This document shows positions 107 through 5,355 of a stretch of DNA of 7,987 nt, piece by piece. The stretch's first letter is position 1. Each line of letters starts with the position of its first letter. Origin of the DNA: a bacterium. GTDB lineage: Bacteria > Electryoneota > Electryoneia > Electryoneales > Electryoneaceae. The notes under the pieces are model-generated. The model ran no database searches. It was given only the letters and a program-made list of their open reading frames with translations, and was not told the DNA's origin. The translations under genes and the position numbers were made by a program. Where the stretch lies: NCBI GenBank assembly GCA_028278125.1, contig JANQEY010000276.1, forward strand, positions 1-7,987, in the 5' to 3' direction.

Positions 107-923
107 GTTAATCATTAAAACCTTAATCTGTTTGATTCCGCTATTGTGGACAACAATTCGTGCGGAAACAAACTGGTATCAGGTGGAAGTAATTGTTTTT
201 GATTATCTAAATCCGGATCTGGATCGGGAACTTTGGTATCAGAATCCCGGGTTGCCACAAAGCGATATGTCGATTGAATTAATTACCGATGTTCCGGATG
301 AAATCGATGTGGCTGATATTAATACCCTGCTGGATATGGAAAGTGAAGAAGAACAGGATCAGGAAGAGATTACTGATGAGGCATTGAAGCCTGACCTTGT
401 CCCCTATCTGGCGCTACCGGAAGATAAGTTCCGGTTAAAAAATGATTATCGCATTTTGAAGCTGTCCTCCGGCTATCGACCCCTGTTACATGTGGCCTGG
501 CAGCAGCCGGGTCTGCAAACAGAGGAAGTGCGTTTTGTACATCTGGAAGGAATTGTCGAGGAGAAACCATCACAACAACCATTAATACAGGAACCCGGAA
601 ATATTATCGATGTCGGCAGCCAGGTGCTCATAGAACAGATATACAAACCACCCGAAATGATTTTTGCAGGGAATATCAGGTTGCGCAGTACAAAGTTTTT
701 GCATATCGATGTGGATATAGCCTATTTCCCGAAGGACTTTACCGGCATTCTAAACAGGCAAGTACAGAAGGATACGAGGAAGGATAGCAGTCTTGCGAAT
801 TATGAAGCGGACTATGTACGGCTGACGGAAAGCAGAAGGATACGGCTTAATGAATTGCATTATTTTGATCATCCACTGTTTGGTGTCATTCTCCAGGTCA
901 GCAGAATTGAAACAGAAGAATAA
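99..923 (+). CDS. csiV: CsiV-family periplasmic protein
   Basis: This encodes about 274 aa. Residues 1-22 form a signal peptide: a short basic start, a hydrophobic core (LIIKTLICLIPLLW) and a likely cleavage after IRA. The mature protein opens with WYQVEVIVFDY and closes with ESRRIRLNELHYFDHPLFGVILQV, the two conserved ends of the CsiV family. Vibrio CsiV is a peptidoglycan-binding periplasmic protein needed for cell-shape integrity with the PBP1a/LpoA synthase; that role is known for the family and inferred here. The middle is acidic (about residues 70-95), as usual for a variable linker. I chose the ATG at 99. The TTG at 87 in the same frame would extend it by 4 residues but leaves only 2 nt after the GAGG at 81-84. 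The gene overlaps the preceding SPFH gene by 8 nt and the next gene by about 17 nt. Confidence 0.8.
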   Translation: MYRLIIKTLICLIPLLWTTIRAETNWYQVEVIVFDYLNPDLDRELWYQNPGLPQSDMSIELITDVPDEIDVADINTLLDMESEEEQDQEEITDEALKPDLVPYLALPEDKFRLKNDYRILKLSSGYRPLLHVAWQQPGLQTEEVRFVHLEGIVEEKPSQQPLIQEPGNIIDVGSQVLIEQIYKPPEMIFAGNIRLRSTKFLHIDVDIAYFPKDFTGILNRQVQKDTRKDSSLANYEADYVRLTESRRIRLNELHYFDHPLFGVILQVSRIETEE

Positions 924-1338
924 ACTTAAAACAAAAAGTGCAATTCAAAGCGCTCTTGATAGACTAGACGACATGGGGTTTGAAGCGTTGCAAGAGCCTG
1001 AAAAAGTATTAGTGACTATATGGGCGATGGAAGGTGAAGTTAATAATGGAGGATTTGAGCAGTTCTTTTTTAATTCCGCCGGAGATCTTGCGTTTTACGG
1101 CCCGGAGGCATTGCGGGCTATCGGTGCTGATACCATGGCCGAATTGGCTGAAAAGGCCAACTCAGTATTCGGCGAGGCCGGTCCCAGCAAGGATTTGGAA
1201 GAACGGAGAGAACTGCTTTTATCATTGGGTGAAAAATACAACGGCTTTCTCGATAAAATCGATGTTCAATTTTTCGAGTATCCAGATGATTTAACATCAT
1301 TGATGGAGAAATATGTTGAGGAGCAATTAAAAGAATGA
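907..1338 (+). CDS. DUF4375 / DMP19-family protein
   Basis: This is an acidic protein of about 143 aa. The core has EGEVNNGGFEQFFFNSAGD, then an ALRAIGA segment and an acidic C-terminus (FEYPDDLTSLMEKYVEEQL), which is the DUF4375 (DMP19) pattern. The founding member, Neisseria DMP19, is a dimer that mimics DNA and sequesters a transcription factor; most family members are uncharacterised, so no specific role is claimed. The start is uncertain. An ATG at 850 would overlap csiV by 74 nt and add a sequence unlike the family. The TTG at 907 has AGG at 895-897 about 9 nt upstream and keeps the conserved N-terminal helix. The ATG at 973 would remove that helix. The gene ends in TGA, showing that TGA is a real stop here. 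It may be translationally coupled to csiV, but its content suggests an accessory gene. Confidence 0.75.
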   Translation: MKQKNKLKTKSAIQSALDRLDDMGFEALQEPEKVLVTIWAMEGEVNNGGFEQFFFNSAGDLAFYGPEALRAIGADTMAELAEKANSVFGEAGPSKDLEERRELLLSLGEKYNGFLDKIDVQFFEYPDDLTSLMEKYVEEQLKE

Positions 1339-4239: not shown

Positions 4240-5355
4240 CTAACGGAAGCCTCCGGGATGTCTGATTGTCTCCGGTGAGCGTTGCCTGTTATGAGAGATG
4301 AGATCCAGCTCAAATGTGATGGGTAATTCGGCCGGCGGAAAACAGATTTCATCATCACAGGTTTGATACTGGAGTGTTGCCGCAACCGTGATCGATGAAG
4401 CCTTGTAGTGGGGAGAGACGGTTAATTCCCGGTTTATCCTGACTTTTCCATGATACACCGGCACGGTTTCATCGATGACATCGAGATGAATCATTTCCGG
4501 TTCCGGCAGTTCCAGCGCACCGGTACGTAATGCGGGGTGTTCCGCTATTTTGAGATCGACCGCGCGATAGGATGAACCGGGTGCATACAGGTGCACCTTG
4601 TCGTACAAGTCGAAGTCCGCTATCAGGACAATACGATTTCCCGGACGGATTTCATCCTGAGACGGATAGGCCGTCAGTTTAAACTGGCGTGTGACATCAG
4701 CCTCGACACGTTGCCCTCCATCTCCGACGCCGAATACTTTTAATAATACTGTATCGGCAGTGATACGCTGCCGGTGTGACTGGTCAAAGAATTTTTCCTT
4801 AACAATACCCTCAGCATCAACAAGATAACTGCCCGGGAATGCCATGCCGTGCAGCATGGTACCGGGTTTTGTATTGGGGTTAAGCAATCCGAATGCTTCA
4901 ATAACTTCGGATTTCGGATCGGCAAGCAAAGTATATCGGAACGGTCCCTTACGCCTGGTAAAATCCTGCAGGATTTCGATGCTGTCATAACTTATAGCCA
5001 CGACACCGAGTCCCTGGTCGGTGAAGCTGTCGTAGGTTCTTTCCAACTCCACGAGTTGGGTTTTACAGAAGGGTCACCAGTCAGCAGAGCGATGAAACAG
5101 AATATAGGCCCCGTTTGTTCCCTTGATGTCATTAAAACTGCGTAACTTTCCATGTTGATCAGGACTTTGAAAATCAGGGATGCGTTCGCCGATCTCCGGG
5201 CCGGTAGCCCAGTTGTTATTCAGCGGGCTGGGTTGGTCGAATACTTTAATTTCCTGTGGTATACCGGGAATAGTAATACTTAACAGTACAAAAAGGATAG
5301 TAATCCTGAATATATTGATGCTATTTGTATTAAAAGTACTCATCATCATTACCAT
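4240..5355 (-). CDS. Probable selenoprotein: exported UxxC redoxin fused to a DsbD-alpha-like domain
   Basis: Read through its single in-frame TGA, this is one 371-aa protein. Residues 15-33 are a hydrophobic export signal or membrane anchor, placing the rest in the periplasm. Residues about 56-205 are an AhpC/TSA-type redoxin: GERIPDFQSPDQHG at 56-69, then HRSADW-U-PFC with the TGA at 94 and Cys at 97, VVAISYDS, and FPGSYLVD with the likely cis-Pro at 174. Residues about 215-352 resemble the DsbD N-terminal (alpha) domain, with YQTCDDEICFPP giving C333 and C338. Related redoxins have Cys where the TGA lies (SADWCPFC), so Sec at the nucleophilic position is the simplest reading. Reduction of periplasmic disulfides or peroxides is inferred; the substrate is unknown. 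The start is ambiguous among four ATGs (5355, 5349, 5346, 5343) with no clear Shine-Dalgarno site. Without recoding it appears as a 93-aa fragment and a false 270-aa gene starting at GTG 5052. A disabled Cys gene or a sequence error remains possible. Confidence 0.82.
5043..5059 (-). promoter_or_regulatory. SECIS-like hairpin after the in-frame UGA
   Basis: In the mRNA, CCAACUC and GAGUUGG form a perfect 7-bp stem closed by a GUG loop. The loop starts 21 nt after the UGA and its first base is G. Known bacterial SECIS elements lie just downstream of the UGA inside the coding region, with a short stem and a loop having G at or near its start, typically about 16-37 nt from the UGA. A possible lower stem, UUCU with AGAA across an internal loop, could extend it. 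The hairpin also encodes QLVELE, so some of the pairing could be chance. Confidence 0.7.
5074..5076 (-). other. In-frame TGA read as selenocysteine (Sec94)
   Basis: The mRNA context is UGG-UGA-CCC-UUC-UGU (W-U-P-F-C). The TGA sits at the first position of the CxxC motif, and the following base is C, a weak context for UGA termination in E. coli. TGA ends two other genes in this window (stops at 1336-1338 and 1896-1898), so a genetic code in which TGA is always sense is excluded. Sec insertion would need selA, selB, selC and selD elsewhere in the genome; none is in this window. Confidence 0.75.

Follow-up and report, generated by a model that had tools for sequence, protein, structure and literature searches.

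A 7,987-nucleotide stretch of contig JANQEY010000276.1 (referred to below, at its full length, as the window) contains a redoxin gene interrupted by an in-frame TGA, which raises the question of whether this codon ends the gene or is read as selenocysteine (Sec, U). When the TGA is translated as U, a single open frame runs on the minus strand from 5355 to 4240 and comprises 93 codons, U94 and a further 277 codons followed by TAG; these codon counts agree with the initial annotation, which had named no strand, and the opposite (plus) strand of the same stretch carries many stops. U94 takes the place of the first cysteine of the redoxin CxxC site, as had been proposed, at the first position after W in the motif RSADW-U-PFC, and lies inside matches to the Pfam families AhpC-TSA (residues 55-187, E 6.8e-28) and Redoxin. 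TGA is the ordinary stop of two other genes of the window, DMP19 and GFA. The best overall explanation, to which we assign a probability of about 0.88, is an exported Sec-containing redoxin joined to a domain resembling the N-terminal domain of DsbD (nDsbD), the gene product being one selenoprotein that, judged from its leader sequence, is probably exported. Decoding of the UGA at 5076-5074 as Sec is predicted with high confidence on comparative evidence that is strong.

The stop position among relatives of the gene

A protein search returns 590 homologues, of which the best 120 are considered here. Most of these (113, the window's own entry included) start past residue 94, 86 of them at residue 102, which is the output expected of a gene caller that meets a stop at residue 94, and the 113 entries cut at this one place are probably wrong gene models. 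The other seven of the best 120 span residue 94 and have Cys there in six cases and Leu in one. The Leu-containing protein (P0113, SADW-L-PYC) could have arisen from a TGA-to-TTG change or from an error. Used as a query, the first 93 residues retrieve the window's own N-terminal half and four others from different contigs (P0123-P0126), all four ending at RSADW, which places a stop at the corresponding codon in these four relatives. Two tandem forms, P0004 and P0005 (616 amino acids), start with a redoxin that is likewise cut at this position, followed by a DsbD_N-like part and by a second copy in which Ser replaces Sec/Cys at the active site (SADW-S-xYC). Two of the listed homologues (P0029 and P0050) carry names that refer to Gammaproteobacteria, which is taken as a lead only. 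No relative is found on viral contigs, and among plasmids there is no match covering 80% of the query.

The codon itself can be read in a sample of 199 genomes from the phylum Acidobacteriota, the phylum of the genome (G008) that holds locus L004. At a family limit of E 1e-40 the gene is found at 25 places in 20 of the 199 genomes, with TGA at residue 94 in 21 genes, TGC or TGT in four and TAA or TAG in none. The 21 TGA genes sit in 18 genomes, and no other in-frame stop occurs in any of them. For three pairs of closely related TGA genes, each from the clade L098-L101, the ratio of nonsynonymous to synonymous substitution rates (dN/dS) is 0.13-0.22 before and 0.08-0.12 after the TGA, and in these pairs of one clade both sides of the codon are under purifying selection. 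Two more distant pairs give upstream values of 0.31-0.33; downstream values are available for the three close pairs only, as lengths differ in the distant ones. Further genes with TGA at residue 94 and homologues with Cys in its place had both been named in the initial annotation as support for Sec, and both are found. Scanning contigs with the window protein gives 77 loci, 75 of which span the site and encode Cys, but the peptide patterns of the scan include the Cys form, so that 75 of 75 is no measure of TGA frequency. A tree of 47 chosen sequences places the window in a group with all 14 of the truncated proteins included (100/99), beside two Cys proteins (99/94), and the TGA and Cys forms are interleaved, with at least six changes for the Sec label and at least six for the Cys label. 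Three genes (L103, L107 and L108) form a divergent branch that is separate from the rest of the family, reads SAVW-U-PxC and has TGA in all three.

Selenocysteine machinery and the hairpin after the UGA

Of the 199 Acidobacteriota genomes, 133 have a SelB match (TIGR00475) above cut-off. These include all 18 with a TGA gene (Fisher p 0.0009, with kinship ignored) and neither of the two with Cys genes only. The search for the selenocysteine tRNA (tRNA-Sec) covered the 20 carriers of the family and 20 other genomes, 40 in all, at a limit of 60 bits that was set after a gap between scores of 61 and 53 had been seen, lower scores being taken as other long tRNAs. At this limit it is present in 17 of the 18 TGA genomes, in neither Cys-only genome (47.9 and 50.4 bits) and in 12 of the 20 others. 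The check for sel genes proposed in the initial annotation rests on these distant relatives. Three non-carriers (G435, G442 and G446) have SelB above cut-off and no tRNA-Sec of at least 60 bits. At locus L109 of genome G458 the TGA redoxin gene is the first of a sel cluster (Table 1), and at L110 (genome G613) both selB and tRNA-Sec share the contig of the family gene, selB being about 4 kb away.

The hairpin that had been noted adjacent to the UGA, CCAACUC-GUG-GAGUUGG, is real and begins 14 nucleotides past the codon, with an energy of -7.6 kcal/mol alone and -9.1 kcal/mol by RNAfold. Its weight comes from the relatives, which share the stop position together with a hairpin showing compensatory changes and so make it more than a chance fold. 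In the family alignment columns 18-24 pair with columns 28-34 at a fixed distance past the UGA. The six outer pairs are complete in 21 of 22 TGA genes (window included), L103 having five, and the four fused Cys genes hold two to four of the six; among the 75 Cys loci, of which L004 and L005 are apparently fused Cys genes counted a second time, all six pairs occur in one and five in 11. Of 19 distinct TGA sequences, 15 have G-C and four have C-G at pair 18-34, and 15 have G-C and four have A-U at pair 21-31; neither of these is ever unpaired, and the innermost pair is broken in nine. The protein sequence does not force pair 18-34, since its two bases are the third of codon 99 and the first of codon 105 (Glu/Gln/Ala). 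The percentage paired, the number of cells changed on both sides and the covariation score each exceed all 500 shuffles, with the caveat that related sequences may exceed shuffles in the absence of structure.

Limits for the bacterial selenocysteine insertion sequence (bSECIS) given in the text of PMC13188914 are a loop of 3-9 nucleotides, a stem of 4-16 bp, a G in the first two loop positions, a distance of 16-37 nucleotides from the UGA and an energy of -7.5 or below. The window hairpin falls within them (7 bp, three-nucleotide loop GUG, 21 nucleotides, -7.6), as do those of 20 of the 22 TGA genes, none of the four fused Cys genes and one of the 75 Cys loci (unbroken-stem version). At other codons the chance rate is 57/2119 in the genes of the window (family gene included) and 627/6360 in the relatives' TGA genes. 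Rfam models give only matches far below curated scores on the window.

Domain arrangement, proposed relay and alternatives

The initial annotation described a redoxin within a fused form; the redoxin assignment stands, and the fused part is now specified as an nDsbD-like domain. The Pfam DsbD_N match at residues 238-343 is above cut-off (E 2.9e-10), and AhpC-TSA, Redoxin and DsbD_N are the only domains found in the window protein at E 0.001, with neither a transmembrane nor a C-terminal thioredoxin domain. A model of the nDsbD-like domain gives fold matches to PDB entries 6c29, 1jpe, 1l6p and 3pfu, and its Cys pair (C-x4-C) is invariant in the family. Profile and single-sequence searches with the C-terminal domain retrieve no nDsbD among PDB sequences, where Pfam and the fold comparison did match. 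Table 1 lists the features. The neighbouring genes of the window encode CsiV, DMP19, GFA, a DNA-alkylation-repair enzyme, a GGDEF protein, a purine phosphorylase, a phosphoribosyltransferase and an AMP-binding enzyme. The DMP19 frame (850-1338, plus strand), taken from its first ATG, overlaps the end of CsiV, and its true start is probably later.

Table 1. Positions of the predicted selenoprotein gene and its elements in the window, and of the sel cluster at locus L109 (genome G458)
Feature	Position	Strand	Remarks
Complete predicted selenoprotein gene	4240..5355	-	371 residues reading through UGA; ATG start, TAG stop; family conserved
UGA codon, predicted selenocysteine U94	5074..5076	-	First position of U-P-F-C, redoxin active site; TGA in 21/25 relatives' genes
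C97 codon, second residue of UxxC	5065..5067	-	Cys also in the 25 relatives' genes
Putative bacterial SECIS hairpin	5043..5059	-	7 bp stem, GUG loop; loop 21 nt past UGA
Hydrophobic N-terminal leader, probable export signal	5260..5355	-	Judged by eye; like leaders in halves P0123-P0126
Redoxin domain	4795..5193	-	Pfam AhpC-TSA residues 55-187; fold match to peroxiredoxins
nDsbD-like domain with C333 and C338	4243..4713	-	Pfam DsbD_N residues 238-343; residues 215-371 modelled
TGA redoxin gene	L109 3695-4843		First of sel cluster
tRNA-Sec	L109 4853-4947		Anticodon UCA
selA	L109 4989-6392		585.6 bits
selB	L109 6398-8404		357.9 bits
selD	L109 8464-9426		366.3 bits

In the proposed mechanism SelB and tRNA-Sec would decode the UGA as Sec, aided by the putative SECIS hairpin 14 nucleotides downstream, to give a thiol oxidoreductase domain of the peroxiredoxin-like type, carrying a U-P-F-C site and joined to the nDsbD-like domain and its invariant Cys pair. 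The latter, placed in the envelope, would receive electrons from a membrane transporter of the DsbD/ScsB/CcdA type and pass them to the Sec/Cys pair, which would in turn reduce peroxides or oxidised thiols. This redox-relay architecture is favoured at rather better than even odds. Among the open reading frames of L109 and L110, a few of which were compared with family models, no DsbD-type match is found near the family gene. That the substrate is peroxide, and not protein thiols or small thiols, is put forward tentatively, at odds somewhat below even. There is nearly an even chance that Sec is correct and the enzyme, instead of being a peroxidase, acts on envelope proteins as a thiol-disulfide reductase or isomerase, as the UxxC arrangement is that of thioredoxin and not the PxxxTxxU of Sec peroxiredoxins (text of PMC13188914). 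ResA-type structures are also among the sequence matches of the window protein. An nDsbD-type domain is the electron donor of CcmG. The fused domain further resembles the electron donor of DsbC, as named in the title of PDB entry 1jzd.

The explanations that dispense with Sec fare much worse. A pseudogene broken by an ordinary stop, or a sequencing error, would be compatible with the window being one contig whose hairpin is not significant alone, but is extremely improbable when the four N-terminal halves also stop at this site and 21 other genes have TGA there and no further in-frame stops, with dN/dS of 0.08-0.22 over both sides in the three close pairs. Termination at the UGA and restart at a GTG or ATG at codon 102, giving two separate proteins, draws on the GTG found there in the window and on the 86 of 113 truncated matches that gene callers begin at this codon; it is very improbable, as codon 102 is GTC or GTA in nine of the 22 TGA genes, the break would fall at the catalytic residue within the redoxin domain and leave the second half with no leader, and the seven homologues of the best 120 with no stop there are single proteins. 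Insertion of Cys or another residue at the UGA has a precedent in selC-like tRNA-Cys species (described in the text of PMC7609411) and would restore the residue found in homologues, yet the two tRNAs identified close to the family gene are tRNA-SeC calls with anticodon UCA, L109 adds selA, selB and selD, and the TGA genes retain a SECIS-like hairpin that the fused Cys genes lack, which leaves this possibility with no better odds than the restart.

Several observations weigh against decoding as Sec. No close-relative DNA is found in draws of genomes made around those taken as gammaproteobacterial, even near those with the closest CsiV (0/369 and 0/360 in two overlapping draws of class genomes; 0/53, 0/2, 0/5 and 0/17 in four orders), and therefore the stop in close relatives is known by position and not by codon. 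The window contig has no tRNA gene and, among the proteins scanned, no sel gene. SelB is common in the Acidobacteriota irrespective of the family, and at the Rfam cut-off of 47 bits 35 of the 40 genomes score for tRNA-Sec, both Cys-only genomes included. Genome G546 has a TGA gene and SelB with a best tRNA-Sec score of 48.9, a combination that, like the three non-carriers above, may reflect incomplete genomes or unusual tRNAs. Taken alone the window hairpin is unremarkable (24 of 200 shuffles fold equally well, z -1.27), and in a 51-nucleotide stretch a different fold wins, with 73 of 200 shuffles as good. Two of five covariation measures are not above shuffles (double-change pairs 160/500, pair types 380/500), and the encoded peptide QLVEL itself favours the hairpin, synonymous choice alone reaching the observed pairing with a probability of 0.04-0.34 per gene.

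If Sec is correct, 18 of the 199 Acidobacteriota genomes carry a redoxin-nDsbD selenoprotein. The wider reading, towards which we lean slightly, is of a large selenoprotein family, until now predicted as truncated 'redoxin' fragments, across Acidobacteriota and, from the names of a few matches, Gammaproteobacteria, in which a detached nDsbD would plug a Sec peroxiredoxin-like enzyme into DsbD/ScsB/CcdA transporters as a one-chain envelope relay. Having both TGA and Cys forms in one family, with and without the hairpin, provides a natural test of SECIS function and of what an envelope redox enzyme gains from Sec, and the fused domain supplies a concrete, testable guess at the electron donor.

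Comparison with known selenoproteins and DsbD-type systems

UxxC peroxiredoxin-like selenoproteins have already been described in marine data (texts of PMC1088965 and PMC2398784). The families known as 'Prx-like thiol:disulfide oxidoreductase' and, from Global Ocean Sampling (GOS), 'Prx-like 1' and 'Prx-like 3' likewise combine PF00578/PF08534 with UxxC (main texts of PMC1088965, PMC2398784 and PMC13188914), and the window protein, with its AhpC-TSA/Redoxin domain and UxxC, is of this kind. It differs in its fusion to DsbD_N, DsbD being unmentioned for those families in the main texts. GOS 'Prx-like 3/Unknown_3' is a fusion too, in which Unknown_3 has three conserved Cys with CxxC, according to the main text, in place of the C-x4-C of the window family; these Prx-like families are set apart by their descriptions and not by sequences (representatives WP_010940744.1 and HEU0032618.1). 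The classical Sec/Cys peroxiredoxin motif PxxxTxxC/U (text of PMC13188914) is replaced in the window by S90-x3-U94-x2-C97.

Neither the window protein nor any of four TGA relatives has an NCBIfam match above cut-off, and the nDsbD domain of the window has no NCBIfam match. The model for the SelL-related redox protein (NF040769), whose cut-off is 120 bits, reaches 40.4 bits in the window and 36-48 bits in the four TGA relatives and matches the redoxin domain only. TsoB, a rhodanese/DsbD fusion-like selenoprotein (NF045694), likewise has a DsbD-like domain in a selenoprotein fusion, but with Sec in UxxxxU and a rhodanese partner (text of PMC13188914). Table 1 of that 2026 review lists UxxC families of PF00578 and PF08534 with no DsbD_N fusion, TsoB being its sole DsbD entry. 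With no such fusion there or in NCBIfam, the protein is judged a new variant among known UxxC peroxiredoxin-like selenoproteins, and no redoxin-DsbD_N selenoprotein is seen in the main-text passages searched in PMC13188914, PMC2398784, PMC5029168, PMC12013277, PMC1088965 and PMC1794560. Earlier datasets, such as GOS Figure S1 and its sets, may hold this fusion unrecognised.

With the N-terminal domain of DsbD/ScsB (DsbD_N, PF11412) the window protein shares the profile match, the fold and the invariant Cys pair. The whole DsbD/ScsB transporter is a different assembly, as the window chain lacks the membrane and C-terminal thioredoxin domains and its nDsbD sits behind a redoxin. The nearest functional parallel, by analogy only, is the ScsB-TlpA-PprX pathway of Caulobacter, in which a membrane transporter feeds a periplasmic peroxiredoxin (text of PMC5403849). 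That pathway consists of three separate proteins, whereas in the window gene the adaptor domain is fused to the enzyme and the active site carries the predicted Sec.
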